From the NCBI RefSeq assembly GCF_008065135.1, contig NZ_CP042914.1, positions 6,863,404-6,927,403 of the forward strand: a stretch of 64,000 nt of DNA. The letters are read 5' to 3'. A model generated the notes under the pieces. The model was not told the origin of the DNA. It did no database searches and saw only the letters and a list, made by a program, of their open reading frames with translations. Within the stretch, counting starts at the first letter, position 1, and the number at the start of each line of letters is the position of its first letter. The translations under genes were made by a program, and so were the position numbers. Below, piece after piece: positions 8,522-33,346 of the stretch. The stretch is from Roseimaritima ulvae. Lineage in GTDB: Bacteria > Planctomycetota > Planctomycetia > Pirellulales > Pirellulaceae.

Positions 8522-9307
8522 GCGTGAGCCGCAGGGCTCACGAACTTAGTCGTGGGTGGGTGAAACCCCATCCACTATAAACGGTGAGGTCGCTGACAAG
8601 CGGCTGAAGCCTACCTGGGCGGGTCCGTTCCTGTCCAGAACTTGTTCCTCGAACTTCAATTTTGGAGGTAAGCAGCTAGTGTCACCCTAAAAAGTGGTAT
8701 CGAAGGAGCCAGGGAACAAGACCTGGGGAGGATTCACGATTCGGCCTAGACGAAGTGCCAGCTTCCGCGAAATAGTGAAGCACGGCGGTCCCTCGAATGA
8801 CCGTCGGACGGCGACAAAAACGGTTAGTCGTCGTTCAAGCGTCAGGGTGGTTGGTGGATTCGCCTCGGGAAAATGGTTCGTGAGCTTGACCGGTGAGGTC
8901 CCCCTTCGTCCGTCAACACAGTGCACAGTGGAGACGGTAAGCCAACGTATAAGCCGACGGTGAAATCCGAGGTAATGCGAAGGATAGGAGCCAGAGGCAT
9001 CCATCTGCCTTGCGAATTTTCCTCCAGGAAAAACCTGGGGTGACCCGGCCCCCACCAAGGCCGCCAGTCACCTGGGACCACAGCAGATCCGGAGTAGTCG
9101 CAGCCCCGTGCCGCGATGAAAGGAGAAACCAGGGTTAGTCCATCGGAAGCACGAGAGCAGACGCCCCCACGTTAGCCGCCGAGAGTCGAAGGATCACCAA
9201 ATGATCCGTCTGTGTTCTGCAAAGCCCGGACATCGACAACTGTGCAGCTAAAGAACCGAGGCAAGCGGCCCCCGTGAACAGGATGATGGCGGTTACGAAA
9301 ACGTAGG

Positions 9308-10507
9308 ATGGCCCTCATGGGCAAGAAAATCAAAGTGCATTCGTTGACCGGTCGGATTGACGATCGGCTGATGAGGCAGAGCTTTCTAGCGGTCAAGCGG
9401 AACCGTGGCGCAGCAGGAATCGACAAGGTCAGCATTGGGATGTTCGAAGAAAATCTCGACGCCAATCTGGCGAGCCTCAAACGGGACTTGAAAACGAAGG
9501 GCACCTTCGTTCCCAAACCGTTGCGGCGGGTGTTTATTCCCAAAGACGCCAGGGGAACTGCGTATAGACCCTTGGGTATTCCGGCAGTAAGAGATCGGGT
9601 CGCACAGGAAGTGATTCGAAGGCTTCTTGAACCGATCTTCGAGCCGCTGTTTCATGATTGCTCGTTCGGGTTTCGACCAAAGCGAAGTTGCCATCTGGCG
9701 ATCGAGCGGTTGTTGTCATTCCATGAAGCAGGTGACCGCATCACACTTGATGCGGATATCGCCGGCTTCTTCGATAACATCCCGCACAAACTGATTGTCG
9801 ATGCCGTGGCGGAAGAAGTATCCGACGGGAACATCTTGGACTTAGTCAAACGATTTCTGGCAGCCGGTGTAATGGAAAACGGAGTTTTCAAGCCCACCAC
9901 GATCGGAACGCCGCAAGGCGGGGTGATCAGTCCGTTGCTTGCGAACGTCGTGCTGAACAAGCTCGACTGGCGATTGGAGAAAGCGGGATATCGCTTCGTG
10001 CGGTATGCCGACGACTTCGTCGTCGCTTGCGAGACGAAGACACAGGCACAAGCAGCCTTGGAATTAGTCGCAGAGGTAATGACCGAACTCGGACTCTCTC
10101 TGAGTCCCGAGAAGACGAAGATTGCGAGCTACGGGAGGGGTTATGACTTCCTGGGCTTTCGACTTTCGAGCAAGTCGCGAACGATGCGTGCGAAGTCCTT
10201 GGAGAAGTTCAAGACCAAGATCCGAGAGATAACCCGTCGGTGTAACAACCTGGACGCACGGGTGATCGAGAAACTGAACCAAGTGATTCGAGGAACGGCG
10301 AACTACTTCGCCACGGAGTTTTCAACGTGCGTAAAGCTTTACCAAAAGCTGGACAAGTGGATTCGGATGCGAGTCCGCAGCATGAAATTCAAGCGGAAAC
10401 TGTCTTTCGACAACTACCGCTTGAAACGACGATACTTCGACAACAAACTTGGGCTGCTACGGCTTCTTGATTTTACTGCAACGTCCATGAGCAAGACGCG
10501 AGCGTGA
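9308..10507 (+). CDS. Group II intron reverse transcriptase/maturase
   Basis: A protein of 399 residues. The RT fingers and palm run from about residue 20 to 290, with LDADIAGFFDN holding the first catalytic Asp (about 150), GTPQGGVISPLLAN at 200-213, and the YADD box at 233-236. A C-terminal thumb/maturase (GIIM-like) region with SKSRTMRAK and an RGTANYF segment follows at about 290-390. There is no HNH endonuclease domain. The start may instead be ATG at 9317, which has AGGA eight bases upstream. It would assist intron splicing and drive retrohoming through target-primed reverse transcription. The frame is intact, so the element may be active. Confidence 0.92.
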   Translation: MALMGKKIKVHSLTGRIDDRLMRQSFLAVKRNRGAAGIDKVSIGMFEENLDANLASLKRDLKTKGTFVPKPLRRVFIPKDARGTAYRPLGIPAVRDRVAQEVIRRLLEPIFEPLFHDCSFGFRPKRSCHLAIERLLSFHEAGDRITLDADIAGFFDNIPHKLIVDAVAEEVSDGNILDLVKRFLAAGVMENGVFKPTTIGTPQGGVISPLLANVVLNKLDWRLEKAGYRFVRYADDFVVACETKTQAQAALELVAEVMTELGLSLSPEKTKIASYGRGYDFLGFRLSSKSRTMRAKSLEKFKTKIREITRRCNNLDARVIEKLNQVIRGTANYFATEFSTCVKLYQKLDKWIRMRVRSMKFKRKLSFDNYRLKRRYFDNKLGLLRLLDFTATSMSKTRA

Positions 10508-10568
10508 CTCCTCTATGGCGGGGCTGGTTCTTGGCGAACCGCCTCCGCCAGAGGCAATGACCTGGGGG

Positions 10569-10600
10569 TAGCCCGGTGCGGGAAAGCCGCACGCCGGTAA
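10569..10600 (+). ncRNA. Group II intron domain V
   Basis: The sequence carries the catalytic AGC triad (10570-10572), a stem CCGGTGCGG closed by a GAAA-type loop, and the returning strand CCGCA, a two-base CG bulge and CCGG. These are the invariant parts of group II domain V, which binds the catalytic metal ions. Confidence 0.85.
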
Positions 10601-10636
10601 ATACAGGGAATTAACCCTGTCGCTACAACGGGGAGG

Positions 10637-10666
10637 CAGTGGCTAGGATAACCTAGCCACTGTTTT
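10637..10666 (+). terminator. Perfect hairpin with T-tract at the 3' end of the intron
   Basis: CAGTGGCTAGG (10637-10647), loop ATAA and CCTAGCCACTG (10652-10662), followed by TTTT. This is an intrinsic-terminator shape with an 11-bp perfect stem. It lies between domain V and the rejoined repeat flank, so it is either domain VI/3' extension of the intron or a terminator carried along with it. Confidence 0.6.
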
Positions 10667-10673
10667 ACCCACT

Positions 10674-10766
10674 CAGAATTTGGACTCCGCGCGGCTTCGT
10701 AGCCGAACTCGCCAGAGTTTGGAGGCTCGGCGACAGCTGCCCAAAGTCTGGCGACTTCTGCTACGG
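10674..10766. repeat. Right part of the interrupted palindrome array
   Basis: Begins with the half unit CAGAATTTGG, then the same spacer (actccgcgc.gcttc) seen left of the intron. A complete unit starting GTAGCCGAACTCGCCAGAG follows, then a variant with stem AAGTC/GACTT at about 10737-10766. Confidence 0.8.
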
Positions 10767-10794
10767 CGTTTGCAAATCGATGGGAAGATACGTG

Positions 10795-13179
10795 ATGAAA
10801 ACCATGCGGTGGCTGTCCGGGTGCAGCCGTTTACTATTGTTCGCCATCGCTTGGTGCGAAATCCACTCTTCCCAGGTCGCCGCAGCGGACAGCCCGCCAG
10901 ATGACAAGCCAGCGGTTGATTTCGCTCGCCAAATCCTGCCCATCCTGTCCGACAAGTGTTTTGTCTGCCACGGCCCCGACGCCAAGAACGATACCGACCT
11001 GCGGCTCGATTCGTTTGCCGCCGCCACGGCCGATCTGGGCGGCTACCGCGCCATCGATCCCGATGCCCCTGCTGAAAGCACGTTGCTGACGCGGATCCAT
11101 TCGGCCGACGATCCGATGCCGCCGGCCGACGCCGACAAGCAACTCAGCGAGCCCGAACGCGAATTGCTGGATCGCTGGGTAGGGCAGGGCGGGGCGTTCG
11201 CAAGCCACTGGGCGTTTGTCGCCCCGCAGCGTCCGCAAGTGGACCCCGGCGATAAGCATTCGGCGATCGACTTGTTTGTCCGTCGGCAACTTCAATCCGC
11301 CGGACACGCGCCCGCGCCGCCGGCCGACCCCGAAACGCTGGCCCGACGCCTGGCGTTGACGCTGACCGGTCTGCCCCCCGAACCGCAGCAGTTGGCCGAA
11401 TACCTGGCCGACCCCAGCGAAGCCGCTTACCTGCGACTGGTCGATCAATTACTGGCCAGCCCGCGTTTTGGCGAACATCAAGCCCGCTACTGGCTGGACG
11501 CCGTCCGCTACGGCGACACGCACGGTTTGCACCTGGATAACCGCCGCGGCATCTATCCCTACCGCGACTGGGTCGTCCGCGCCTTCAACGACAACCTGCC
11601 GCTGGATGATTTCATCACCTGGCAACTGGCCGGCGACCTGCTGCCCGATCCATCGTTGGAACAACAGGTGGCCACTGGATTTGTCCGCATGAATCCCAGT
11701 ACGGGCGAAGGCGGCGCGATCAGCGAAGAGTTCCAGATGAAGAACAATTTTGATCGCGTGGAAACCTTTGGCACCGTGTTCCTGGGTATGACCTTCAACT
11801 GTGTGCGTTGCCATACCCACAAATACGATCCCATCCTGCACACCGAATACTATCGCCTGATGGCGTTCTTTAATAACACCGCCGAACCGGCGCTGGACGG
11901 CAACTCGTACACCTATGGCCCCACCGTCAAAGTCCCCGCCGACCAACAGCAGTGGGAACAGTGGCGAAGCCTGATCGCCCAGCGTCAACAACTGGATGCG
12001 GCCGCAGCGGAACAGGCCGAACCGGCGTCCGACCAAGATCGTCAGCAAGCCGAGCAGTTGGCGGCTCAGCTGCAAGAACTCGAAACCAAGTTTACGACCA
12101 GCCTGGTCGCCAAAGAGTTGCCGCAGCCACGCGCCACTCGGTTACTGCATCGCGGCGAATACAACCAACCCACCGGCGACCCGCTGCTGCCCGGCACGCC
12201 GGTGGTGATGAGCCCCTTCCCGGACGACGCCCCGCGCAACCGCCTGGGTCTGGCGCGATGGTTAACCGCCCCCGACAACCCGCTGGTCACCCGCGTGCTG
12301 GTCAATCGAATCTGGCAACGCACCCTCGGCAACGCTCTGGTGCGAACGCCCGAAGACTTTGGGCTACAAGGCCAACAACCGACACATCCACAACTGCTGG
12401 ATTGGCTGGCGGTAGAGCTGAGGGAGAGCGGCTGGGATCTAAAACACTTGCTGCGTTTGATCGTTACCAGTCAAACCTTTCGGCAAAGCTCGGCTCGTCG
12501 CCCCGATCTGCAAGACCCCGAAAACCGCCTGCTCGCCCGTGGCCCCAGCTACCGCCTGGACGCGGAGGTACTGCGTGACATGGGCCTGTGGGCCAGCGGC
12601 TTGCTGGATCCCAAAATGGGTGGCGAAGGCGTCAAACCCTACCAGCCCAGCGGGATGTGGCTGGCCATGGCCCACCCGGCCAGCAACACCAAAAAATACG
12701 AACGCGATCACGGCCGGAAACTCTATCGCCGCAGCCTGTACGTGTATTGGAAACGGACCAGCCCGCATCCCATGATGACACTGTTTGACGCCCCGGATCG
12801 CGAGACCAGTTGTGTGCGGCGGTCGCGCACCAGCACGGCCGTGCAGTCGCTAGGGATGTTAAACGAAACGCAGCGCATCGAGATCGGCCGCCGACTGGCC
12901 GCGCGGTTGCTGCACCACCGCGACTCCGACGACCAGCGTTTAGCGATGTTGTTTGAGCTGCTGGCCTGCCGCCCACCGACACCGGTCGAATCCGCCGCTT
13001 GCACACAACTCCTGCAAACGCTGACCGCTCGTTACACCGCACATCCCGACGACGCAGAACGGCTGCTGGCGATCGGCGATGTCGCTCGTGATGACGCTTT
13101 GGATCTGCCCAGCCATGCCGCCTGGACGCAAGTCTGCGTGACCGTGCTGGCCAGCGACCTTGCCATCATGCTCTACTAG
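10795..13179 (+). CDS. PSCyt1/DUF1549/DUF1553 cytochrome-like protein
   Basis: A protein of about 794 residues. After a signal peptide (roughly residues 1-30) comes a planctomycete cytochrome C domain with the heme motif CFVCHG at about residues 57-62. DUF1549 follows (DRLLASPRFGEHQARYWLD and a conserved YRDWVVRAFN), then a variable Gln/Ala-rich linker, and a C-terminal DUF1553 domain (NRLGLARWLTAP, NRIWQRTLG). ATG at 10795 was chosen because GGGAAG sits seven bases upstream. It ends 10 bases before a DUF1501 gene, the standard planctomycete pair, predicted to work together in the periplasm or at the surface. Biochemical function is unknown; links to sulfated polysaccharide use have been proposed for the family. 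Confidence 0.9.
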   Translation: MKTMRWLSGCSRLLLFAIAWCEIHSSQVAAADSPPDDKPAVDFARQILPILSDKCFVCHGPDAKNDTDLRLDSFAAATADLGGYRAIDPDAPAESTLLTRIHSADDPMPPADADKQLSEPERELLDRWVGQGGAFASHWAFVAPQRPQVDPGDKHSAIDLFVRRQLQSAGHAPAPPADPETLARRLALTLTGLPPEPQQLAEYLADPSEAAYLRLVDQLLASPRFGEHQARYWLDAVRYGDTHGLHLDNRRGIYPYRDWVVRAFNDNLPLDDFITWQLAGDLLPDPSLEQQVATGFVRMNPSTGEGGAISEEFQMKNNFDRVETFGTVFLGMTFNCVRCHTHKYDPILHTEYYRLMAFFNNTAEPALDGNSYTYGPTVKVPADQQQWEQWRSLIAQRQQLDAAAAEQAEPASDQDRQQAEQLAAQLQELETKFTTSLVAKELPQPRATRLLHRGEYNQPTGDPLLPGTPVVMSPFPDDAPRNRLGLARWLTAPDNPLVTRVLVNRIWQRTLGNALVRTPEDFGLQGQQPTHPQLLDWLAVELRESGWDLKHLLRLIVTSQTFRQSSARRPDLQDPENRLLARGPSYRLDAEVLRDMGLWASGLLDPKMGGEGVKPYQPSGMWLAMAHPASNTKKYERDHGRKLYRRSLYVYWKRTSPHPMMTLFDAPDRETSCVRRSRTSTAVQSLGMLNETQRIEIGRRLAARLLHHRDSDDQRLAMLFELLACRPPTPVESAACTQLLQTLTARYTAHPDDAERLLAIGDVARDDALDLPSHAAWTQVCVTVLASDLAIMLY

Positions 13180-13189
13180 AAAGCCCGCC

Positions 13190-14707
13190 ATGTTTGCCCC
13201 CTCAGAACCCCTTCGTCAACTCTCCCAAACGCTCACCCGCCGCCAATTGTTCGGACGCTCCGCGCTGGGCCTGGGCACCGCCGCGTTGGCCGGCCTGATC
13301 GGCGACGAACTGGGCGCTGACGTCGTATCGGATCGGCCCCCGCAAGGCTTACACCATCCGGCCAAAGCCAAAACGGTGATCTATTTGTTCATGAGCGGCG
13401 GGCCCAGCCAACTGGACATGTGGGACTACAAACCCAAATTAAACGATCGGTTCAATCAACAGTTGCCCGACCATATCCGCGACGGGCAACGCGTCACCGG
13501 GATGACCGCCAACCAAAAAAATGGGCTGCCGATCTGCCCCAGCAAATACAAATTCACCAAGTACGACAACAACGACCGCGGAGTCTGGATCAGCGAGCTG
13601 CTGCCGCATACGGCCAAGGTCGCCAAAGAGCTGTGCGTGGTTCACAGCACGTTTACCGAAGCCATTAACCACGACCCGGCGATCACCTTCATCCAAACCG
13701 GCAGCCAGATCCCCGGTCGCCCCAGCCTCGGCGCCTGGCTCAGCTATGGCCTGGGCAGCATGAACGAGAACCTGCCGCACTATGTGGTCATGCACGCCAA
13801 GACGCGGCACGCCGAACAAAGCCTGTTCAACCGCTTGTGGGGCACCGGTTTTATGCCCTCGGACCATCAGGGCATGCTGATGCGCAGCGAAGGCGACCCG
13901 GTGCTGTACCTGAGCAACCCGGCCGGCGTCAGCCGCGACGACCGTCGCGCCCAACTGGACGCCCTCACGGCCCTGAACGAAGCCCAACACCAACGCTTGG
14001 CCGACCCGGAAGTGCTGTCGCGAATCAAACAGCATGAAATGGCGTATCGGATGCAAGCTTCCGTGCCCGAGCTGACGGATCTCTCTCAGGAAACGGAAGA
14101 AACCATCCGCCTATACGGCGACGACGCTCGCACCCCGGGCACGTTTGCCGCCTGCTGCCTAAACGCGCGGCGGCTGGCCGAACGCGGCGTCCGCGTGATC
14201 CAGATTTTTCATCGCGGCTGGGACGCCCACGGCAATTTGCCGGGCGAACACGGTTCGCAGTGCCGGGACATCGATCAGGGCTGTGCGGGTTTGATCGCGG
14301 ATTTGAAACAGCGCGGCATGTTGGACGAAACGCTGGTCATCTGGGGCGGCGAATTCGGCCGCACGGTTTATTGTCAGGGCAACCTGACGCGAGACAACTA
14401 CGGCCGCGACCACCATCCGCGTTGCTTTACGACTTGGCTGGCCGGCGGCGGCGTCCAACCCGGAATCACCTACGGACAAACCGACGATTACGGTTACAAC
14501 CTGGCCGACGCCGATGGCAATCCCCTGGTGCCGCAACCCACGCCCGACCGCTGGACGCCCGGCACGATGCACATCCACGACCTGAACGCCACGATCCTGC
14601 ATCAATTAGGCATCGACCACAAACGCCTGACCTACCGCTATCAAGGCCGCGACTTCCGCCTAACCGACGTCCACGGGCATGTTTTGAAAGATCTGTTAGT
14701 GGGGTGA
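13190..14707 (+). CDS. DUF1501 protein with Tat-type leader
   Basis: A protein of 505 residues. The N-terminal TRRQLFGRSALGLG stretch followed by a hydrophobic run is a twin-arginine signal, so it is probably exported folded. The body has the DUF1501 (alkaline-phosphatase-like superfamily) features: MSGGPSQLDMWDYKP near residue 68, HDP and HGNLPGEHG segments with metal-binding type His and Asp, and GGEFGRT near the C-terminal third. The start at 13190 follows the upstream stop by 10 bases. It pairs with the DUF1549/1553 gene. DUF1501 is related to sulfatases, but the typical Cys/Ser-x-Pro-x-Arg site is not seen, so enzymatic activity is not claimed. Confidence 0.9.
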   Translation: MFAPSEPLRQLSQTLTRRQLFGRSALGLGTAALAGLIGDELGADVVSDRPPQGLHHPAKAKTVIYLFMSGGPSQLDMWDYKPKLNDRFNQQLPDHIRDGQRVTGMTANQKNGLPICPSKYKFTKYDNNDRGVWISELLPHTAKVAKELCVVHSTFTEAINHDPAITFIQTGSQIPGRPSLGAWLSYGLGSMNENLPHYVVMHAKTRHAEQSLFNRLWGTGFMPSDHQGMLMRSEGDPVLYLSNPAGVSRDDRRAQLDALTALNEAQHQRLADPEVLSRIKQHEMAYRMQASVPELTDLSQETEETIRLYGDDARTPGTFAACCLNARRLAERGVRVIQIFHRGWDAHGNLPGEHGSQCRDIDQGCAGLIADLKQRGMLDETLVIWGGEFGRTVYCQGNLTRDNYGRDHHPRCFTTWLAGGGVQPGITYGQTDDYGYNLADADGNPLVPQPTPDRWTPGTMHIHDLNATILHQLGIDHKRLTYRYQGRDFRLTDVHGHVLKDLLVG

Positions 14708-14784
14708 GCGTTCCCGAGGCGGCTCTGCAATCGTGGCGCAGCGACGGGAGATGGCTTGCGGTCGGCGAAATTTGACAGCGCAAC

Positions 14785-14944
14785 AGTCGCGAAGCGACGA
14801 TAGGCGATAGCCCAGGACGCCAGTCCTGGGAGGCGCGGGGACAGACACCGCGCACTCCGTTAGGCACCGGAGGCGCGGGGACAGACACCGCGCACTCCGC
14901 TAGGCACGGAGTGCCGACATAATCTCTGCCGGGGGTGTGAACCC
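14785..14944. repeat. Intergenic hairpins and 40-bp direct repeat
   Basis: The 237-base gap after the DUF1501 gene has no gene. It holds a small hairpin at 14785-14797 (GTCGC/GCGAC), a stronger one at 14811-14830 (CCCAGGAC-gcca-GTCCTGGG) and two direct copies of a 40-base unit containing gcggggacagacaccgcgc (from about 14830 and 14870). A GTGCCGACATAATCTCTGCC block then leads to the IS target palindrome. Further copies of these blocks occur at 16672 and 16945. Confidence 0.75.
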
Positions 14945-16472
14945 AATGCCACCTACTTTTCCGTTAATCGGGTGGGGGAGTTGGGTCTTTGGTATTGGAT
15001 TTCCGAAGCGATTTTTGAAATTTGGTTGTCTTTTGGCGGCGCGCATGGGCAAGGCGGGGGTAGCTCCGTGGCTCTTTGCGATTAGGCAGCTTGCGGCCTG
15101 ATGCGCTCACCAGTGCTCCTTGGTAGGCAAGGTTCCACTCTTCCAGCGTGTTGAAGTCTTTGTACAGAAGGTCGTAACGAAATGTCGTCCACACGCCGCT
15201 GAAGCTGAGGCGACGAGGTTTGACATTGATCAGTTTAGCCGCTTGTTTGCGAAACTGAGTCACTAGGTTGTAAGCGATCACTGATCCCAGCAACTCTTTC
15301 TTGACCGTGTCGACGCTCTTGGCACGAATGTTCTCGGAGTCCATCGTGACCTTCAGGTCTCGGATATCGAATTCAATATCATACCGCCGCCGATACAACT
15401 CCCCGACCGATACCCCATCAGTCTCAACATTGGTAACCAATTCAAGCGTTTGCTCATTCTCCAAATCGACTTGATGAATGAATGCCTCGACGGCTGCGTC
15501 GGCCGGAAGCGCAGGATGTTTCTTTCGTTCTTTAGCGGTCGGTTTCCAGATCAGGTGATAGGTTCGGCAACCTTCCGTTTCTTCGATCAGAGTGGCCTTC
15601 TTGATGTACGCTTTGTAACGCTGTTTGGTCAACCTGAAGACGAACGGCTTTGCTCGCAACTGGCAATGGAAAGCGACTGAAAAGATGCCGAAACCGCTAT
15701 CCGCCAACACGATCGAGTTCTCGGGAAGTCGGTCAATGATCTTCTCAGCTTGTTTCGGTTCGCTGGAGTTTTTGGAGCCGTACATCGGATCGACCTGGGG
15801 AACCAACGCGCAGCCGGTCTGCATTTCGTGAGCAACCATCAAACAAGCCACTGGCCATACCGACTCGCCGTGCTTGTTCATTGCGGGCGGGAAAGCCTTT
15901 TTTAGTTCCTGTGTTGGCGGCAGCGTGATGGTCGTTCCATCGAGGATGAAGACGCGCTGGTCTAGGAAAGCTGGTTCCGCCCGACGAGCCAGGTGATCGC
16001 ATACTCGATGTGAGAATTCCTCGATCACTTCAATTGGCAGATTCTGCCGAGCCTTGTTGTAAGCGGAGTTATTTTCAGACAGCTTGCCTTCGGTGACTCG
16101 TCGATTCTCGGGCAGAATGTCACTGTGGTTATTGATGAGGTCTTTGACAACTTGCTCAAGCGTCAGTCCACCTCCTAGTCGCTGCATCACCAGCAACCAG
16201 AGCGTGGGTGCCTGCGTGTAGACCCTTTTGGCGTGAGAAGGTTCCTGTCCTTCAAAGGCAGCTTGAAGCTGAGGTAAGCCAATCAAATCGGCAAGCAAAG
16301 TCTTTGCACGACAGAACGGAGAATCAGGATCGGATTCGTTTGTTGGTGCTACCATCACGGTTTCTACGCCAAAGTGACATTGGAAAAGAAACCAATTTCA
16401 CTGCGCGAATTCCGTGCCAAAGAGCTGTCGATTCCAGCCATCCCCCCCGGAAAAACCAAAGTAGGTGGCATT
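14945..16472 (-). mobile_element. IS4-family insertion sequence with defined ends
   Basis: A 1528-bp element. The terminal inverted repeats begin with AATGCCACCTACTTT at both ends (15 of 15 identical). The flanks are 12-bp direct repeats, GGGTGTGAACCC (14933-14944 and 16473-16484). A 12-bp duplication fits the 10-13 bp known for IS4-type elements. Removing the element and one repeat restores the hairpin CCGGGGGT-gtga-ACCCCCGG, an intact paralogue of which is present around 16731-16750. Confidence 0.92.
14964..16355 (-). CDS. IS4-family transposase
   Basis: An intact DDE transposase of 463 residues. The C-terminal half shows the IS4 signature Y-(2)-R-(3)-E-(6)-K in YRRRYDIEFDIRDLK. The first Asp lies in FILDGTTITLPP and the second in VLADSGFG. 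ATG at 16355 is preferred over GTG at 16358. It fills the element, leaving about 20 bases at the 3' side. It is predicted to cut and paste the element; the intact frame and clean duplication suggest recent movement. Confidence 0.92.
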   Translation of the reverse strand: MVAPTNESDPDSPFCRAKTLLADLIGLPQLQAAFEGQEPSHAKRVYTQAPTLWLLVMQRLGGGLTLEQVVKDLINNHSDILPENRRVTEGKLSENNSAYNKARQNLPIEVIEEFSHRVCDHLARRAEPAFLDQRVFILDGTTITLPPTQELKKAFPPAMNKHGESVWPVACLMVAHEMQTGCALVPQVDPMYGSKNSSEPKQAEKIIDRLPENSIVLADSGFGIFSVAFHCQLRAKPFVFRLTKQRYKAYIKKATLIEETEGCRTYHLIWKPTAKERKKHPALPADAAVEAFIHQVDLENEQTLELVTNVETDGVSVGELYRRRYDIEFDIRDLKVTMDSENIRAKSVDTVKKELLGSVIAYNLVTQFRKQAAKLINVKPRRLSFSGVWTTFRYDLLYKDFNTLEEWNLAYQGALVSASGRKLPNRKEPRSYPRLAHARRQKTTKFQKSLRKSNTKDPTPPPD

Positions 16473-16992
16473 GGGTGTGAACCCCCGGACCCAAGATAAC
16501 AGCAGCTACAAGGCCCGGAGGGCCGTCACAGTTCTGCCCATGCGCGGCACAGTAACTCTTTATGTCGGCCCTCCGGGCCTGTATTGTTTTGTGGGGGCCG
16601 TACCGGGGCTTTACAGCCCCGGCAAGGGCTATGTCGGCCCTCCGGGCCTAGCGCGTCGAGAATCGGAACCGCGCGGGGACAGACACCGCGCCCACTCCGC
16701 TAGGCACGGAGTGCCGACATAATCTCTGCCGGGGGTGTGAACCCCCGGACCCAAGACAACAGGAGCTACAAGGCCCGGAGGGCCGACACAGTTCTGCTCA
16801 TGCGCGGCACAGTAACTCTTTATGTCGGCCCTCCGGGCCTGTGTTGTTTTGTGGAGGCCGTACCGGGGCTTAACAGCCCCGGCAAGGGTTATGTCGGCCC
16901 TCCGGGCCTAGCGCGTCGAGAATCGGAACCGCGCGGGGAACTGCGCGGGGACAGACACCGCGCCCACTCGTCTGCGCATACACCTGCCGTCG
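16473..16992. repeat. Two tandem copies of a 260-bp palindrome-rich unit
   Basis: The block starting GGGTGTGAACCCCCGGACCC at 16473 recurs at 16733 with few changes, a period of 260. Each unit contains several hairpins: GGCCCGGAGGGCC, GTCGGCCCTCCGGGCC (twice), GGGGCTTTACAGCCCC and the gcggggacagacaccgcgc block. No plausible gene lies in 16485-17190; apparent reading frames here are translations of the palindromes. Confidence 0.88.
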
Positions 16993-17000
16993 CTTCGCGA

Positions 17001-17079
17001 CTCCTAACTCCTAACTCCTAACTCCTAACTCCTAACTCCCAACTCCCAACTCCCAACTCCCAACTCCCAACTCCCAACT
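17001..17079. repeat. Heptanucleotide tandem array upstream of flhA
   Basis: About five copies of CTCCTAA are followed without a break by about six copies of CTCCCAA. The two variants differ by one base and are grouped in blocks, which suggests slippage expansion. The array ends about 110 bases before the flhA start. Confidence 0.92.
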
Positions 17080-17190
17080 TTTCCGCCTAGACCCCGCGGT
17101 ACCGCTTTGACTACTCTCCCTCGATATGATTCGGCCCCTTGCCGGGTCCAGAATCTGCATCGTGTTCGGCTGTCGTAGGATTGGTTGGGA

Positions 17191-22629: not shown

Positions 22630-22630
22630 G

Positions 22631-24736: not shown

Positions 24737-24880
24737 GTCGAGGCAGGGCAGGGGAGTAAAGCGGACAGATACAGTGCGTATTTTCTGGCCTCAGTATGAC
24801 CGCCACGAAACAGGGAACAAGCCGTGCAGCGGGGGCGGAACCCTGCAGGCCGGCTCCATCGAGTCCCGCCACCGTCCTGT

Positions 24881-25717: not shown

Positions 25718-25730
25718 GGGCGGGGTAGGG

Positions 25731-25758
25731 GAGTAGTGAGTAGTGAGGAGTGAGGAGT
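25731..25758. repeat. Short heptanucleotide tandem array
   Basis: Two copies of GAGTAGT are followed by two of GAGGAGT, just upstream of the larB start. It has the same 7-base period and blockwise variants as the array before flhA. Confidence 0.8.
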
Positions 25759-25884
25759 AAGCGTTCAGCTCCATCATACCCAGGCCGGTTGCCAGCTTGG
25801 CCGGTGGGCAATCACAATAGGCAACCTGAACATCCCCTACAACCGACAACCCTTTAGCCGCCCGCGGCTGGGAGACTGAAATCG

Positions 25885-27102: not shown

Positions 27103-27112
27103 GGGGTCTTCT

Positions 27113-27216
27113 TCACCCTCCTTTTCAAGGAGGGTCGAGCGTCAGCGAGGGGAGGTTTTTGCATTGCAGGCGGCGTGGTCGCCCTCTCCTCGCTGACGCT
27201 CGACTCTCCCAGAGGG
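27113..27216. repeat. GGGAGGG/GAGCGTCAGCGAGG inverted pair, second arm split by ISL3 element
   Basis: The first arm (27113-27156) ends in a T-run and may terminate argG. The second arm is read in reverse from 27181; its terminal hairpin ACTCTCCC-aga-GGGAGAGT is cut by the insertion sequence and continues at 28526-28540. Confidence 0.85.
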
Positions 27217-28525
27217 GGCTCTTCGTCGGTTTTAGTGGCTGAAATCCGGCTCCATCTTTAGGGCCCCACAATAAAACAAGATGCGGGTGCGGTAGTTCTC
27301 GAAGTTGCGAAAGCCGCGGGCCGCCGACTTGATGGCCTGCACTCGACCGTTGAAGGCCTCACTTTTGGCATTGGTGATGGAGTACTCGAAGTAGGCCAGC
27401 AAGCCGGCGAGGTGTTTCTTGAGCATTCTCGCAACCTTCTTGATCGGATCGAGTTTGCTACGAATGGCCCATGCGTACCAACGGTCAAAGAACTTCTTCG
27501 CCCAAGCGCCGCTGCGGTATGTCCAGAAGTCACGAAACATTTCCTTGATTCCCCACGCACGTGCCGTCTTGATCGCGACTTGCCGAATGTCTTCGATTTG
27601 CTTTTGCGTGGCATCATCAAGAGTCTCCTCGTTGTAGAGCCAAAGTTGACGCGTACCCGTCAGGTCATTAATGCCTTCGCTTCGGAGCAGTTTGTTCTCT
27701 CGGCGTCGAACCAGATCGACCGCTTCGCCGAGGTATTGGCTGATGTGGAAATGGTCGTGAACGATCTTCGCCTGGGGAACTTGTTTGACAATGCTGTTTC
27801 GAAAAGCTTGCCAGAAGTCCACGGCGACTGCCCGAATGCCCGATTTTTGCTCATCGGTGAGACTGTCAAAGAGTTTGTCACAAGATGCCTCGCTGCGGTC
27901 TTTGACGACTTCCAGCACTCGCGATCCTTCCAGGTCAACCATCAGCGACACGTAGTCCTGGCCTTTGCCAAAGCTCTTTTCATCAATGCCCAGGGTTTCA
28001 ATCGGATCGGTATCACGACGCTGTAGTCCTCGCTCAACCCCGCGTTGCATGAGCTCGTGAGCGGTCTTCCAAGAGACCTTCAGTAACTTGGTCGCCGCCG
28101 AAACGCTGCTAGCCGCCTGAAGGACTTTGATCGCAAAAGCTTCAAACATCAGCGTGAATCGAGAGTGCTTCCCTGCCCAGGGTACGGCAATCGTTTTCAC
28201 ACCGCACCGATCGCATTTTGAACGAGGAATTGCCGCTTCGATAATGGTCTCGAACTGCATCGTGTCCAAGTGCCTCCACTGACGCGTTGGCGCGGTATCC
28301 GCACGAGAGCATTCGTCCTGGCACTCGGGGCAGCAGAGCTTGCCGCCAGAGTGACGTAATTGGATGACGACACTATTGGCTTCCATCTGAAGGTCAACGT
28401 TCTGGACCTGCCACTGGTCATCAAGTCCCAGCAGCAAACGATAGTGGGCATGTAGTTCATTCATGCTGCCATGATAGAAAATCCAAGACAGCTGAGACAT
28501 TAGCCACTAAATTTGACGAAGAGCC
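27217..28525 (-). mobile_element. ISL3-family insertion sequence
   Basis: A 1309-bp element with inverted repeats GGCTCTTCGTC..TTTAGTGGCT at both ends (about 21 of 24 matching). It is flanked by CCCAGAGGG on both sides (27208-27216 and 28526-28534); ISL3 elements make 8-bp duplications, so one base of the match may be chance. Joining the flanks restores the apex of a hairpin in a type-E repeat. Confidence 0.9.
27232..28464 (-). CDS. ISL3-family transposase
   Basis: An intact transposase of 410 residues. An N-terminal zinc-binding helix-turn-helix part has CCPECQDEC and CDRCGVKTI; the DDE core shows GIDEKSFGKG, AVAVDFWQAFRNSI with IVHDHFHISQYL, and a C-terminal NAKSEAFNGRVQAIKS containing the catalytic Glu. 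ATG at 28464 (MNELHAHY) was chosen over 28500, which lies in the inverted repeat region. No passenger gene is present. Confidence 0.93.
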   Translation of the reverse strand: MNELHAHYRLLLGLDDQWQVQNVDLQMEANSVVIQLRHSGGKLCCPECQDECSRADTAPTRQWRHLDTMQFETIIEAAIPRSKCDRCGVKTIAVPWAGKHSRFTLMFEAFAIKVLQAASSVSAATKLLKVSWKTAHELMQRGVERGLQRRDTDPIETLGIDEKSFGKGQDYVSLMVDLEGSRVLEVVKDRSEASCDKLFDSLTDEQKSGIRAVAVDFWQAFRNSIVKQVPQAKIVHDHFHISQYLGEAVDLVRRRENKLLRSEGINDLTGTRQLWLYNEETLDDATQKQIEDIRQVAIKTARAWGIKEMFRDFWTYRSGAWAKKFFDRWYAWAIRSKLDPIKKVARMLKKHLAGLLAYFEYSITNAKSEAFNGRVQAIKSAARGFRNFENYRTRILFYCGALKMEPDFSH

Positions 28526-28556
28526 CCCAGAGGGAGAGTGAAGTATAGTCGCTACG

Positions 28557-28585
28557 CGTCCAAAGTCTGGCGACTTCGGCTACCG
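28557..28585. repeat. Single GTAG-headed palindrome, AAGTC/GACTT stem
   Basis: The reverse strand reads GTAGCCGAAGTCGCCAGACT. It sits downstream of the 28594 gene's stop, with the fixed GCCA loop and a stem variant shared with 10737. Confidence 0.75.
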
Positions 28586-28593
28586 ATCATGGC

Positions 28594-29505
28594 TTAGTCC
28601 AAGATATCATCGGCCAGCGGTTCGCCGCCGGCCGGACTGAGCAAAGCTCGGATCTCGACCGGCGAGAGGGCGTCGCGGAGGAAGTGGCTGCGGCCGTCGA
28701 CCGTCGCCACCACCGCCCCGCGCTGGTGTTGGCCGCCGATTTCGACGCCGTCATTACCGGCGATGGCGAACTGCATTTTGCGAATGTCTAAATCCACCGG
28801 CTCCATCCAATTTAATCCGGTGGCCGCCGGCGGTTTGCCTTCGACCACCAAAATCGTCTTCGCCGGATCGTCCACCAGATCCTCCGGCGAAAGCGACGTG
28901 GTGGGCGTCGGAAACAGGGTCCCCGGCCCGGTCACCAGAAAGTAAGCCGTCTCAAACCCAAAGCCCTGCCCGGCGCTGGCCTGGTAGACGGCCGGCGTGG
29001 AGTAGATCTGGTTCATGTTGGCATCCCAGGACTGTTCCATATCGTACTGCCGGTACAGCTCTTCCTGTCCCAGGTACGGCAGGATCAACACTCGCCAACT
29101 GTGCATCGGTTGGCCGTTGGCATCGTTGGTAACCGGCGGCGGGTATTGGCCGTAATCGGCGGCATAGGCATTTAAGGCTTTGGCGATATTGACCAGATTC
29201 GACGCGTCCTGTTGCTTGCGGCGGTTGGCCTGCAGTTGAGCCAGCGTGGAACTGCTGAACTTGATGAACACAAACAGCAAGCAAGCGGTCAAGGCCAGCG
29301 TAATCGTGCCGGCGATCGCCAACCGCACGCTGCGATGAGCCATCCAGGATTCCCGCACCGGTTGATCATCGACTGGTCCCAAGCCGGCGAAATCCGGCAG
29401 CTCGACCGCCTCACGACAAACCGCGCAATCCCCAGCCAATCCGCTGTACTCATCGCCCACCAAGGTCTGCGACTTGCAATGAGGGCAGGTAAACAGGTAA
29501 GACAT
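28594..29505 (-). CDS. Membrane protein with zinc-ribbon N terminus and DUF1559-like domain
   Basis: A protein of about 303 residues. The N terminus has two CxxC knuckles (CPHC near 8 and CAVC near 27), resembling a small zinc ribbon. A single membrane helix lies at about residues 62-82. The extracytoplasmic part has LVNIAKALNAYAADYGQYPPP and SWRVLILPYLGQEELY, typical of planctomycete DUF1559/prepilin-like proteins, but here without the usual N-terminal methylation motif. ATG at 29505 was chosen; 29511 is nearly equal. Role unknown; the family is greatly expanded in planctomycetes. Confidence 0.72.
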   Translation of the reverse strand: MSYLFTCPHCKSQTLVGDEYSGLAGDCAVCREAVELPDFAGLGPVDDQPVRESWMAHRSVRLAIAGTITLALTACLLFVFIKFSSSTLAQLQANRRKQQDASNLVNIAKALNAYAADYGQYPPPVTNDANGQPMHSWRVLILPYLGQEELYRQYDMEQSWDANMNQIYSTPAVYQASAGQGFGFETAYFLVTGPGTLFPTPTTSLSPEDLVDDPAKTILVVEGKPPAATGLNWMEPVDLDIRKMQFAIAGNDGVEIGGQHQRGAVVATVDGRSHFLRDALSPVEIRALLSPAGGEPLADDILD

Positions 29506-29597
29506 CGCCATTCCGCGTTCGTGGGGTCCGTTGCCAACATCGGCCGGTTGCATTGTACCCCAGTTTTGCCCCCTGCCGAGAATAGGTGAATGCCCCG

Positions 29598-30038
29598 ATG
29601 AGATGTGTCCTGCAACGTGTTAGCCAAGCCCGTGTGGAGATCGACGGCGAGGTGGTCGGCAGCATTGAGCGCGGCTTGATGGTGTTGGTCGGAGTAGGGC
29701 AGGGCGATACCGAAAAAGATTGCTTGGCACTGGCCGACAAAACCGCCGTGCTGAGGATCTTCCCCGACGAAGACGACAAGATGAACCGCTCGCTGCTGGA
29801 CGTCCAAGGCCAAGCCCTGGTGGTCAGCCAGTTCACGCTGCTGGCCGATTGCCGCAAAGGTCGACGCCCCGCGTTCACCGCCGCGGCCGCTCCCGACCTG
29901 GCCACCGAGCTTTACGAACGCTACTGCCAGCGACTGCGAGAGCAGGGCATCGACGTGCAAACCGGGGTGTTCGCCGCCGACATGCAAGTCCACCTGACCA
30001 ACGACGGCCCGGTCACGATCCTGCTGGAAAGCCCGTAA
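29598..30038 (+). CDS. dtd: D-aminoacyl-tRNA deacylase
   Basis: A protein of 146 residues. It starts with [13 protein letters not shown] and carries the diagnostic [15 protein letters not shown] and the C-terminal [11 protein letters not shown] with the GPVT Gly-cisPro motif. Dtd hydrolyses D-aminoacyl-tRNAs and glycyl-tRNA(Ala), protecting translation. ATG at 29598 is preferred over GTG 29586 because the family begins at MR and GGTGA lies nine bases upstream. It is divergent from the DUF1559-like gene. Confidence 0.95.
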
Positions 30039-30047
30039 GGTTTGCTC

Positions 30048-30110
30048 GTAGCTACCGTCGCGTTCGCGGTGGGAAAGTCGCGGCCCCACGCTCTGGCGAG
30101 CGTAGCTACG
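30048..30110. repeat. Two GTAG-headed palindromes after dtd
   Basis: One degenerate copy (30048-30073, ACCGTCGCGTTCGCGGT) and one exact ACGCTC/GAGCGT copy at 30085-30110 lie in the convergent gap between dtd and the 30146 gene. Confidence 0.8.
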
Positions 30111-30145
30111 GGTTTGTGGTCGGATCTCTGCGTTCGAATATCTTC

Positions 30146-30895
30146 CTAGCGGCGGCTGATCGGGCCGCGTAATTTTTCCAGCCACTGCTCGGCCGGCTGC
30201 GCCATGTACGGCACGTTGATCGACTGCCGCTCGTGCGTGTGCTCATGCTTCCGCAACACGCCGTGGTCCGTCCAAGCCAGATAGGCCAACAGAGCCAGTT
30301 TGGCGTAGGTCGAGATATTGGCCCAAGCGTTGTTGCTGGAAAACTTCAGCGCCGTGCCAAACGATTTCTTCAATCGTGTCCGTCCCGAACGCATTTGGAC
30401 CGACCAGATTTCGTCCATCACCAGATGCGTCATGAACCCCAGCGTGACAGCCAAGCTCTTATACACCCGGATCGCTTCGCTGGGACACGGAATCACCAAG
30501 TACGCCAACAGGCCCGCCGAAGCGGCCGCCGGCAGACTGTGCCACATGCCGCGATGGACCGTGTACTTTTTAAAAATCCCCACCAACACAAATCGCATGA
30601 ACAGATAGATCAGCATCGCCGCCAAAGCCATCTCTTCAGGCGTCATTTCGAGGGCTCGAAAACGATCGATCATCAACATCGGCACCAACGCCGACGCGAA
30701 GTTGCTGGTCTCGCGAAGCGGGATGCCGGAATCGCTGTCTAAGTCCGGCAGCATTCCGCTGACCGCGCACAAGCCAGCCGCCAACATGCCGCTTTCGATC
30801 GGCATGCTCTGATGCATCGTTCCCCAATAGCCATAGGCCACTCCGACCATCGTGCTACCGGTGATGTGGGCTTTGAAACCGGCCACCCAGAACAC
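30146..30895 (-). CDS. YdjM-like membrane metal-dependent hydrolase (DUF457)
   Basis: A protein of 249 residues. The N-terminal FKAHITGSTMVG, LPDLDSD and VHRGMWHS segments give the conserved His/Asp residues of the YdjM/DUF457 family, within several hydrophobic helices; FMTHLVMDEIW is the late His-Asp motif. The C-terminal 50 residues are hydrophilic. The start is GTG at 30895, the first codon after an in-frame stop; GTG at 30886 is also possible. Members are predicted membrane hydrolases of unknown substrate. Confidence 0.75.
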   Translation of the reverse strand: MFWVAGFKAHITGSTMVGVAYGYWGTMHQSMPIESGMLAAGLCAVSGMLPDLDSDSGIPLRETSNFASALVPMLMIDRFRALEMTPEEMALAAMLIYLFMRFVLVGIFKKYTVHRGMWHSLPAAASAGLLAYLVIPCPSEAIRVYKSLAVTLGFMTHLVMDEIWSVQMRSGRTRLKKSFGTALKFSSNNAWANISTYAKLALLAYLAWTDHGVLRKHEHTHERQSINVPYMAQPAEQWLEKLRGPISRR

Positions 30896-31073
30896 TCACG
30901 CGTTGCTAGCAATTCGAACCTGTGAAGGAATCGCAGGTCTTTGCATCACTCTTACTCGGATTCGGTGAGTTCTGCCAAGACCGAAGCGTGGTGAGCGAAT
31001 GGCATTTGACCTTTCGATTCGCTGCGCCGCTTTGGTAGGCTCGACCGCAGGACCGATTCCAGGAGCCGTTGGA

Positions 31074-31592
31074 GTGGAGACATACGATATTTTGATGCTG
31101 GTCGTGCTGGCCGGCGCGGCGATCTTCGGCGCGATCAAGGGCTTTGCCTGGCAGCTCGCGTCGATCGGATCGATCGTGCTCAGCTATGTGGTCGCGGTGC
31201 GCTACCGCGAACCGTTCAGCCAAGCGATCGCCGCCGACCCGCCTTGGAACCGATTGCTAGCGATGCTGATCCTGTACGTCGGCACGTCGCTGGTGATCTG
31301 GGTGGCATTTCGGATGATCAGCAAAACCATCGACCGGATGAAACTGCGCGAATTCGACAGGCACGCCGGAGCGGCGTTTGGATTGGGCAAAGGCATTTTA
31401 TATTGCACCTTGATCACGCTGTTCGCAGCCACGCTGCTAGGGCCCGCGGCGAGCGAAAAAATCGTTCAGTCGCGAAGCGGATATTACATCGCCAAACTGT
31501 TGGCCCGCGGCAACGGAGTGATGCCGACCGAAGTCCAACAAGTGATCGGGCCGTACATCGAACGCTTCGACGCCGACAAGGCCGACAAGTAG
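31074..31592 (+). CDS. CvpA-family membrane protein
   Basis: A protein of about 172 residues starting VETYDILMLVV. Four hydrophobic helices, with the GAIKGFAWQLASIGSIVLSY stretch of the CvpA/colicin V production family at about 20-40, and FGLGKGILYCTLI in the C-terminal half. GTG at 31074 was chosen because AGGAG lies nine bases upstream and the family starts here; the in-frame ATG at 30999 would add 25 unrelated residues. CvpA proteins are implicated in envelope homeostasis. It is divergent from the YdjM-like gene and followed at once by a split palindrome. Confidence 0.8.
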   Translation: METYDILMLVVLAGAAIFGAIKGFAWQLASIGSIVLSYVVAVRYREPFSQAIAADPPWNRLLAMLILYVGTSLVIWVAFRMISKTIDRMKLREFDRHAGAAFGLGKGILYCTLITLFAATLLGPAASEKIVQSRSGYYIAKLLARGNGVMPTEVQQVIGPYIERFDADKADK

Positions 31593-31607
31593 CATGGGCC
31601 AGGGGCC
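31589..31607. repeat. Left half of a GTAGCATGGGCC palindrome split by an IS
   Basis: GTAGCATGGGCC-AGG-GGCC at 31589-31607. The right half, GGCC-AGG-GGCCCATGCTAC, is at 33137-33155. Together, minus one 11-bp duplication, they form a perfect 12-bp inverted repeat around AGG. Confidence 0.85.
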
Positions 31608-33136
31608 TGCTGATTACCCAATTCTTTTTTTGAAATCGCAAAAAAACACCGCGATTTCGGCACGCTTTTTGCGCCTCGTGTTACCTATTTTTACACGATA
31701 GGAGCGCGATTGATGACCATTGAACCAGCCACGATTGAGCACGAATTTGACACCATCGACTTCGGCCATAAAAGCCGTAACGATCGATCGAAAGAACTTC
31801 TCCAGGCCCTCTTCGCCAATCCTCAAGCGAGCATTAATGCGGCTTGCGATAAATGGTGTGCTGCGAAAGGGGCTTACCGGTTCTTGGATAACCCCAAGGC
31901 CGATAGCCAGGAAATTCTTGCTGCGCACCGTCGGGCGACGATCAAGCGGATCAAGTCCCAGAAGGTGGTTTGCGTGGCCCAAGACACGACGGAGTTAGAC
32001 TTCAACGGTCACGCCCCCGACGATGTGAAGTGCCTAAACATGGCAGACCGACGGGGATTGTATGACCATAGCTCTGTAGCCTTTACGCCCGAGAAGCTTT
32101 GTCTGGGCGTGCTGGATGTGGAGTTCTTTGATCGTAGTGAAGACAGCCTAGGAAAGGGCAGTCAACGGAAGAGTGATCCGATCGAAGAGAAGGAAAGTTT
32201 TCGATGGCTTCAAGGCTATCGCCGATGCTGTGAATTGGCCTCACAGTGCCCGGAGACTCAAGTTGTTTCTTTAGCGGATCGCGAAGGTGACATCTACGAC
32301 ATCTTTGTTGAAGCTGAACAGCACGATAATCCGGCCGACTTCGTGATTCGCAGCAAGCAAGTCCGGTGTTTGCCTGAAAAAGACGACGAAGCCGGTGGCG
32401 ACAGCTACAAGAAGATCCGATCCGAAGTTGCAAAAACAGATCTCGTTACAACGCGGCAAGTCGAGTTGCCAGCCACTGCCCAACGTGCCGCCCGAATGGC
32501 CACTCTAGAAATCCGTGCCATTCGCACAAAGATAAAACCGCCCCATGCACGACGCTCGGCTATTCCGGAAGTGACGCTCAGCGTAGTGCTCGTTCAAGAG
32601 GTCGACGGGCCGCAGGATGGAACCGACCTGAACTGGCTGCTATTGAGCTCCCTTCCGATTGACGATTACCGAGATGTATTGCGGATTGTTGACTACTACG
32701 TCGCACGGTGGCCTGTCGAAATGTTCTTCCGAGTACTCAAATCGGGATGCCGCGTTGAGGACATCCAGCTGAAAACCAAAGCCAGGCTGATTCGCGCGTT
32801 GATGTTTTACAAAGTTGTTGCATGGCGGATCATGTTTATCACATTCCTCGGACGCGAGTGTCCTGAGTTGCCATGCGATGTTGTATTCAGCGACGCTGAA
32901 TGGAAGTCGGTTTGGAAAGTCGCTAAGGAATCGGAGCCGCCGAAATCAGCTCCCGAACTCTCGCAATTCATCCCCGTGCTTGCTCAGCTAGGTGGCTACA
33001 ATGGACGCAAACACGACGGCCCACCAGGAATGGAAACGATCTGGCGTGGAACTCGCCGAATGATGGACTTCGCCTTAGCCTGGCAAGCCTTCGGGCCTCC
33101 AAAATCATCCGTTCACTAAAAATTGGGTAATCAGCA
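31608..33136 (+). mobile_element. IS4/IS50-like insertion sequence
   Basis: A 1529-bp element with inverted repeats TGCTGATTACCCAATT (16 of 16) and an 11-bp direct repeat GGCCAGGGGCC on both sides (31597-31607 and 33137-33147). The target is itself palindromic, so the boundary could shift by a base or two. The insertion is centred on a GTAG-headed palindrome of the same family as those at 37293 and 38629. Confidence 0.9.
31713..33119 (+). CDS. IS4-family (Tn5/IS50-like) transposase
   Basis: An intact protein of 468 residues. The N terminus resembles the Tn5 transposase DNA-binding domain (ASINAACDKWCAAKGAYRFL). The catalytic core has VAQDTTELDF, LADREGDIYDIF and the Y-(2)-R-(3)-E-(6)-K signature in YVARWPVEMFFRVLK. 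ATG at 31713 is preceded by GGAG at a good distance. It is unrelated in sequence detail to the other IS4-type transposase at 14964, so two different lineages are present. Confidence 0.92.
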   Translation: MTIEPATIEHEFDTIDFGHKSRNDRSKELLQALFANPQASINAACDKWCAAKGAYRFLDNPKADSQEILAAHRRATIKRIKSQKVVCVAQDTTELDFNGHAPDDVKCLNMADRRGLYDHSSVAFTPEKLCLGVLDVEFFDRSEDSLGKGSQRKSDPIEEKESFRWLQGYRRCCELASQCPETQVVSLADREGDIYDIFVEAEQHDNPADFVIRSKQVRCLPEKDDEAGGDSYKKIRSEVAKTDLVTTRQVELPATAQRAARMATLEIRAIRTKIKPPHARRSAIPEVTLSVVLVQEVDGPQDGTDLNWLLLSSLPIDDYRDVLRIVDYYVARWPVEMFFRVLKSGCRVEDIQLKTKARLIRALMFYKVVAWRIMFITFLGRECPELPCDVVFSDAEWKSVWKVAKESEPPKSAPELSQFIPVLAQLGGYNGRKHDGPPGMETIWRGTRRMMDFALAWQAFGPPKSSVH

Positions 33137-33346
33137 GGCCAGGGGCCCATGCTACGCGGCGAATCACGAAAATGCCCGTTTTCCTGGGAAAAACGCAGGC
33201 CGAATACAACATAAGAGGCATTATCGGACGTTGGGGATAGGGCGTTTTTACAATGATTCGCTGGTCAGCCGGGTTCACCGCAGCGGGAATTCGGCAATCA
33301 TGTACGGGCCATCGAACACCTTCCTCACACCGATCCGCGATCCATC

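Follow-up and report, generated by a model that had tools for sequence, protein, structure and literature searches.

The window considered here is a stretch of 64,000 nucleotides from the planctomycete Roseimaritima ulvae (contig NZ_CP042914.1, positions 6,863,404 to 6,927,403), whose genome is a single contig of 8.21 Mb. Between 8.5 and 33.2 kb the window holds four mobile elements: a group II intron, an IS4-family insertion sequence (IS), an ISL3-family IS and an IS50-like member of the IS4 family. Each interrupts a palindrome at its centre, and the broken palindromes belong to families of repetitive extragenic palindromes (REPs). A genome-wide census and a comparison with relatives suggest that separate elements each prefer one REP family and insert at its symmetry axis. 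The insertion sites comprise the following features, including target-site duplications (TSDs) and the intron- and exon-binding sites (IBS1 and EBS1) of the intron.

8508 to 8521, + strand: 5' half of a REP with a GTAG tag (GTAGCCGAATTCGC), in which the putative IBS1 AATTCGC lies; the same REP family is interrupted in 3/3 intron copies
8522 to 10673, + strand: group II intron, with three near-identical copies in the genome
9012 to 9018, + strand: putative EBS1 GCGAATT, complementary to IBS1 at 7/7 positions
9308 to 10507, + strand: intron-encoded reverse transcriptase/maturase, with RVT_1 and GIIM Pfam matches (TIGR04416, 373.8 bits, cut-off 300)
10674 to 10683, + strand: 3' half of the REP interrupted by the intron (CAGAATTTGG)
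10702 to 10722, + strand: unoccupied REP of that family, 18 bp beyond the interrupted one (GCCGAACTCGCCAGAGTTTGG)
14929 to 14944, + strand: left palindrome half with the IS4 TSD GGGTGTGAACCC (14933 to 14944)
14945 to 16472, - strand: IS4-family IS (NF033592, 147.2 bits, cut-off 115) with a YREK motif; 8 copies
16473 to 16488, + strand: right palindrome half with the second copy of the IS4 TSD (16473 to 16484); GGGTGTGAACCC lies inside CCGG..CCGG
16729 to 16748, + strand: empty paralogous palindrome CCGGGGGTGTGAACCCCCGG, a near-copy of the IS4 site and one of 26 empty copies genome-wide
27203 to 27216, + strand: left half of the palindrome ACTCTCCCAGAGGG with the ISL3 TSD CCCAGAGGG (27208 to 27216), inside ACTCT..AGAGT
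27217 to 28525, - strand: ISL3-family IS (NF033550, 329.7 bits, cut-off 180); 14 copies
28526 to 28539, + strand: right palindrome half with the second copy of the ISL3 TSD (28526 to 28534)
31589 to 31606, + strand: left half of the GTAG-tagged palindrome GTAGCATGG with the 9-bp IS50-like TSD GCCAGGGGC (31598 to 31606)
31607 to 33137, + strand: IS50-like IS of the IS4 family (NF033590, 384.6 bits, cut-off 160) with a Tn5 dimerisation domain; 6 copies
33138 to 33155, + strand: right palindrome half with the second copy of the IS50-like TSD (33138 to 33146)

Re-reading the sequence bears out all four sites that the original prediction had placed at palindrome centres. Its central duplications also stand for the IS4-type and ISL3 elements, while that of the IS50-like element measures 9 bp with a CTG terminus, not 11 bp, and lies inside GTAGCATGG..CCATGCTAC. 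The terminal inverted repeat (TIR) of the IS4 element reads (C)AATGCCACCTACTTT, its first C being assignable either to the element or to the target; the TSD is 12 bp if the element starts with AATGCC and 10 bp if it starts with CAATGCC. The IS50-like element has the TIR CTGCTGATTACCC, and its six genome copies are 100% identical. Both transposases carry the YREK motif and make TSDs of 10–12 bp (IS4) and 9–10 bp (IS50-like), in keeping with the IS4 family, and the ISL3 transposase matches three Pfam ISL3 domains in addition to NF033550. The intron junctions fall at 8521/8522 and 10673/10674, and its empty site, CCGAATTC-GC|CA-GAATTTGG, folds into a hairpin of 8 bp, one of them G-T, whose loop has the junction at its middle. 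No endonuclease domain appears among the Pfam matches of the intron-encoded protein.

Empty versions of these sites exist elsewhere. A near-copy of the IS4 target lies empty about 250 bp beyond that element, and a 2-Mb sample of the genome contains 26 empty 28-bp copies of the ISL3 site. The exact 27-bp empty site of the IS50-like element has no match in the sample, in which a looser pattern of its target family finds 93 matches on both strands. The expectation that empty sites carry the hairpin thus holds for empty paralogous copies, which retain the palindrome. Next to the repeat block struck by the IS4 element lies a match to the Acido-Lenti-1 RNA (RF01687, 53.4 bits; 14785 to 14830, - strand), part of which is an inverted repeat of 16972 to 17002, so that the match may itself be a repeat.

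Across the genome there are eight copies of the IS4 element, 14 of the ISL3 element, six of the IS50-like element and three of the intron. Flank inspection places 8/8, 12/14, 6/6 and 3/3 of them, respectively, in their own palindrome family, and pattern matching alone places 7/8, 11/14, 6/6 and 3/3. A genome in which most copies of the four named elements lay outside palindromes would have spoken against the prediction; here 29 of the 31 lie inside, 27 by pattern and two by eye. The two judged by eye are L008, a hybrid IS4 site, and L017, an ISL3 copy in an imperfect family B repeat. Outside family B lie the ISL3 copies L013 and L022. Copy L008 has no TSD and joins halves of two different family A members, as expected from recombination between copies. 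Five of the six IS50-like copies occupy one GTAG-tagged family (C) and the sixth another GTAG REP.

Further multi-copy elements were sought irrespective of palindromes, by self-comparison of the 2-Mb sample and by a genome search for DDE_Tnp_1 (36 matches). Four were added: an IS1380 element outside the window (E1; NF033539, 392.2 bits, cut-off 180) at 11 places, and a second, third and fourth IS4-type element with four, four and three copies. The IS1380 element duplicates CTAG in 10 of 11 cases and CTAA in one, and seven of its 11 copies lie in a bulged repeat of their own, ATCAGCCGC..CTAG..GGTT (family E). All four copies of the second IS4-type element sit in the GTAGCATGGG..CCCGTGT REP of family C, which they share with the IS50-like element. 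Copies flanked by the two pieces of a single interrupted repeat, the type 1 association of Tobes and Pareja, number 7/8 for the IS4 element (the eighth being a hybrid), 12/14 for ISL3, 6/6 for the IS50-like element and 4/4 for the second IS4-type element. A genome search for rve transposases gave no match at E values up to 0.001, and the searches did not extend to IS110, IS630, IS66 or other families. Additional elements may therefore exist, since the self-comparison also covered only about a quarter of the genome. At loci L325, L326 and L327, a 1.65-kb IS4-type element with the TIR CAATAGTGTTCGGCAC is inserted in GGTCAGGCC/GGCTGACCC. These sites do not fall at the tip of the longer inverted repeat that they adjoin or lie in; folding can give a shorter, imperfect hairpin around them.

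The chance test rebuilt the empty sites of 53 copies of the eight elements and scored gapless dyads within 1 bp of the insertion centre, with 40,000 random intergenic points, defined as points outside greedy open reading frame (ORF) calls, as background. Two rebuilt sites without an exact TSD (L008 and L331) are rough reconstructions. A dyad of at least 7 is found at 22 of the 53 sites compared with 1.08% of the random points (binomial p ~2e-29), confirming that insertion centres coincide with inverted-repeat centres beyond random intergenic expectation. These sites are divided among the IS4 (8/8), ISL3 (10/14) and IS50-like (4/6) elements, the others having none. At a dyad of at least 5.5 the count rises to 32 of 53 against 2.97%, including IS4 8/8, ISL3 12/14, IS50-like 6/6, the intron 3/3 and the second IS4-type element 1/4. 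Strict folding, a weaker test, finds stems of at least 8 pairs at 37 of 53 sites against 12.4%. Because the intergenic background reaches 40–47% under loose folding and 12–23% under strict folding (where 37–40 of 53 sites score), folding discriminates weakly and the gapless dyad score is preferred, a measure that misses bulged hairpins such as those of IS1380 and the second IS4-type element. Several unrelated element types thus share palindrome centres in this genome, as predicted, and strike several repeat families.

The families are distributed by element. By pattern, the IS4 element falls in family A, CCGGGGG-N6-CCCCCGG, in 7/8 copies, ISL3 in B in 11/14, the IS50-like element in C in 5/6, the second IS4-type element in C in 4/4, IS1380 in E in 7/11 and the intron in D in 3/3. 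A GTAG tag precedes the hairpin in families C, D and I and is absent from A, B and E. The sample contains 595 intergenic hairpins with a dyad of at least 7, which divide into B (62), C (17), D (13), I (3), A (2), K (1) and no family (498), with one counted twice. In the sample, families B, C and D occur in abundance, and their matches outside the crude ORF calls number 64 of 104 for B, 112 of 179 for C2 and 63 of 91 for the D core. Family A has only 26 exact empty palindromes in the whole genome, compared with none for the backward control, so about one in four family A sites is occupied. With family A making up 2/595 (about 0.3%) of sampled intergenic hairpins, an IS4 element drawn to hairpins as such would almost never strike it exclusively.

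The TSD core of the IS4 element, GGGN6CCC, has 948 matches on both strands of the sample, which correspond to 474 places, of which ORF calls cover all but about 73 (the target of IS231A is GGGN5CCC). Because this core is far commoner than family A, recognition by the IS4 element appears to extend beyond it. Four empty family A palindromes with 258-bp spacing lie just downstream of the IS4 copy L005 (G000:C1:3991460-3992253), so that the IS borders a tandem array.

The putative EBS1 of the intron, GCGAATT, pairs without mismatch with the seven bases that precede the junction in two of the three copies. Among the 91 family D matches in the 2-Mb sample, 50 carry G at the variable position, 39 C, one T and one is mixed; the intron copies occupy the T variant twice, the C variant once and the G variant never. 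The T variant pairs with EBS1 at 7/7 positions and the C and G variants at 6/7. On these few insertions, three in all, the placement of the window intron is best explained by EBS1 base pairing. The junction lies in the REP loop in 3/3 copies, rather than after a terminator or attC hairpin as would be usual for group IIC introns. The intron RNA gives no Rfam match at E values up to 1, despite the good score of its protein against the group II maturase profile, and this RNA may fall outside current Rfam models.

Ten further intron loci come from relatives; six with both junctions were tested, three (L240, L310 and L242) offer only the 3' side and one (L241) was set aside. A homologous intron in genome G141 (L236) shares the EBS1 of the window intron and occupies the tip of a GTAG REP, with a dyad of 6.5. 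Four others, L237, L238, L239 and L309, are not at a REP apex (dyads of 2, 4.5, 2 and 2), and L311, with a dyad of 1.5, folds such that the junction directly follows a small inner hairpin enclosed by a longer inverted repeat. The putative EBS1 of the G024 intron pairs at 7/7 positions only when G-U pairs are counted, four being Watson-Crick. Among seven introns, only that of the window has an exact 6–9-nt complement in the first 820 nt.

Related IS proteins were collected from 199 genomes of the same taxonomic family, and sites were rebuilt where the ends could be read. Loci were taken for 19 of 29 IS4, 17 of 29 IS50 and 19 of 29 ISL3 relatives, with partial and contig-end matches dropped and further loci added. 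The IS4 label includes five elements only 27–29% identical to the query. Loci without a clear TIR and TSD were removed (14 of 39 for IS4, 7 of 20 for IS4x, 8 of 42 for IS50 and 16 of 21 for ISL3). Palindromes with a dyad of at least 7 occur at 7 of 24 distinct IS4 sites, 3 of 12 sites of more distant IS4 elements and 8 of 30 IS50-like sites, compared with 0.2–0.6% in flank controls. Each of the 16 IS50-like copies listed for G006 and G072 (62–63% identity) is counted as having one in-frame TGA while keeping an open frame of 477–505 aa, which may be an end effect. The distant IS50-type elements L204 (G077) and L027 (from the R. ulvae genome itself), which share 29% identity and come from different genera, lie in the same REP type (GTAGCCTAGGCTTCCAGCCTGGG).

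An arm-swap test on these sites used 69 rows (IS4 25, IS4x 12 of 13, IS50 32 of 34), three identical rows being dropped and ISL3 excluded; 66 are distinct when strands are ignored. Between elements and genomes, with one site per genome and group (29 sites), own arms pair at 3.44 of 6 bp compared with 1.75 after swapping, and none of 1000 swaps reached the observed pairing in any of 60 draws. The loss of pairing on exchange of the right arm indicates that different elements have different palindromic targets. Within one element (14 elements), own arms pair at 3.05 of 6 bp and those of another copy at 3.42, own pairing being better in five of 14 elements and equal in one. Since a copy's own arm pairs no better than that of another copy, sequence is what the copies share, which favours recognition of sequence.

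A possible origin of the repeats lies in genes for REP-associated tyrosine transposases (RAYTs), identified here by a Y1_Tnp match only. The genome has 13 Y1-transposase matches, and three of these genes are flanked by REPs on both sides: L033 by repeats of the family A unit (the palindrome on one side, GGCCCTCCGGGCC on both), and L040 and L044 by other REP families. A fourth, L032, has family C repeats on one side, and L034 contains one short GTAG match within the Y1 stretch. We infer that RAYTs are the source of the repeats, which fits a scheme in which REPs spread by RAYTs were later used as targets.

Together these observations are best accounted for by sequence-specific use of REPs, a reading to which we give a probability of about 0.72 as a whole, covering the REP families, the RAYT-like neighbours, the dimeric reading by the ISs and the EBS1 pairing of the intron. 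Intergenic space holds many REP families, several of them GTAG-tagged, four beside RAYT-like genes and three of these on both sides, and each mobile element would have come to use one family as its preferred target, inserting at the symmetry axis. Acting as a dimer, an IS transposase most likely recognises the REP apex and the arm bases around it by their two-fold symmetric sequence, and the EBS1 of the intron RNA most likely pairs with the left arm and loop of its REP. The targets, the TSDs, the empty paralogues, the restriction of families by element, the EBS1 complementarity and the repeats beside RAYT-like genes are all observed; both modes of recognition, of REP sequence by transposases and of the target by EBS1, we infer.

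Several results weigh against this reading. The third and fourth IS4-type elements lie in or near GGGGTCAGG-type repeats in six of seven copies by pattern, mostly not at clean dyad centres, and fit poorly at a dyad of at least 5.5 (1/4 and 1/3). IS1380 sites score 0/11 by the gapless dyad and 2/11 by strict folding. Among the 21 loci of ISL3 relatives, none of the five readable sites has a palindrome, including that of one protein 92% identical. For the intron, only three insertions are available, and EBS1 alone does not explain the choice of C over G, both of which pair at 6/7 positions. The nine other Y1 loci have no flanking match among the tested REP motifs. The IS50-like copy L027, in a REP with different arms, hints at some role for structure. 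So do two IS4 copies in genome G137, L146 and L265, both at palindrome centres, whose arms of at least 20 bp are unrelated and nearly perfect and which share the core GCCGTAAGGC on opposite strands; own arms pair at 6.0 and other arms at 3.0. This pair is the best candidate for structure-driven targeting. An IS50-like group in G147 leans the same way (own 5.25, other 3.75).

An alternative close to the original prediction makes the palindromes a structural landing pad, in which many transposases, and the intron too, would recognise the shape of extruded cruciforms or of single-stranded hairpins at the replication fork. The match of insertion centres to dyad centres far beyond background, the covariation of arms between elements and genomes and the G137 pair are all in its favour. 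The well-fitting elements nevertheless stay mostly in one family despite hundreds of other hairpins, and overall no arm covariation appears within an element, so a common landing pad of the kind first proposed is not supported. Insertion at any hairpin, whatever its sequence, is rejected on the family restriction and the within-element swap, with G137 as the exception. For the intron, two of three copies lie in the rare EBS1-matching variant, while the C and G variants keep the same arm pairing; IBS1 also lies within the stem, so folding should hinder its pairing. The structural account is accordingly unlikely. We consider it equally unlikely that REP hairpins are a true structural target in this bacterial family, IS4-family transposases reading an extruded or single-stranded hairpin tip under a short core constraint and RAYT-spread REPs forming a shared gene-free niche for mobile elements that came later. 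The unrelated arms of the G137 pair and the covariation between lineages keep a structural reading open.

A somewhat more doubtful proposal is that dimeric transposases prefer short dyad cores anywhere and that insertions in REPs survive because REPs are abundant and harmless. TSD cores here are often dyadic, and Tn5 target sites are described as palindromic in the portion of PMC1525189 drawn on here. Set against this, the GGGN6CCC core is available at the many places counted above, yet the IS4 element is in family A, with its few empty copies, in 8/8 cases. Removal of gene hits should not yield base-pair precision at the apex, and the IS50-like insertions are recent, given their 100% identity. 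The proposal also does not apply to the intron. Finally, it is very improbable that the palindromes are by-products of excision or duplication by the elements: because the elements end in inverted repeats, their flanks can take on a palindromic look, but the same palindrome families recur empty in element-free stretches, TSDs lie inside the palindromes, and empty copies contradict such an origin for A, B, C and D.

Sequence-specific REP use of this breadth suggests that the targeting of REPs is more than an oddity of a handful of IS families. A single genome holds IS4 elements (at least three types including the IS50-like one), ISL3 and IS1380 elements and a group II intron that all converge on REP families, mostly different ones. 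The genome therefore lends itself to studying how recognition of palindromic repeats arises in transposases, and whether REPs protect the host by drawing insertions away from genes. If sequence recognition alone is at work, the case neatly extends known biology; if structure matters, it would amount to a new mode of target choice.

Insertion of ISs on the axis of REPs has been known since 2006, and the palindrome-centre insertion is in that respect less novel than first proposed. Tobes and Pareja (2006; PMC1525189) found REP targeting among 981 elements, in the IS3, IS110, IS4, IS256 and IS5 families, and named ISRm22 (IS4), ISPsy8, ISPa11, ISPpu9/10 and ISRm19. ISRm22 inserts, with a TSD, on the symmetry axis of a consensus that is highly palindromic, and a table in the same paper places a group II intron with REPs in two of nine cases, in P. 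putida. The likeness to the elements here, on the parts of that paper used, extends to all copies lying in one REP family and to TSD-less copies being put down to recombination (compare L008). Differences are that a term search of the paper gives no occurrence of ISL3, that IS1380 is absent from its family list as consulted, and that at least six element types show REP targeting in one genome here.

The repeats and elements also compare with other described systems, as far as the consulted sections of each source go. The GTAG REPs and RAYT genes of Di Nocera et al. (2013; PMC3733652), with R. baltica among the hosts, share the GTAG start, several families per genome and repeat-flanked RAYTs; those sections say nothing of other elements using the repeats as targets, and families A, B and E here lack the GTAG tag. 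IS4 subgroups (PMC2266710) have conserved target arms and TSDs of about one helix turn, as here, a comparison that leaves aside which targets are palindromic; the IS50 subgroup makes TSDs of 8–9 bp, whereas four of the six IS50-like copies here have 10 bp. Group IIC introns (PMC4424553) are likewise hairpin-associated, and the window intron is like them in having no matched endonuclease domain; they insert at terminator or attC hairpins, whereas here the junction is inside the loop, the putative IBS1 lies in an arm and EBS1 has a 7-nt match. A literature search confined to one library found, in the titles and abstract openings listed, no report combining group II introns with REPs, planctomycete ISs with palindromes, or ISL3 with REPs, and nothing on cruciform hotspots. 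ISL3, IS1380 and the intron are additions to known REP targeting, and this genome is a strong multi-element case of a known behaviour.

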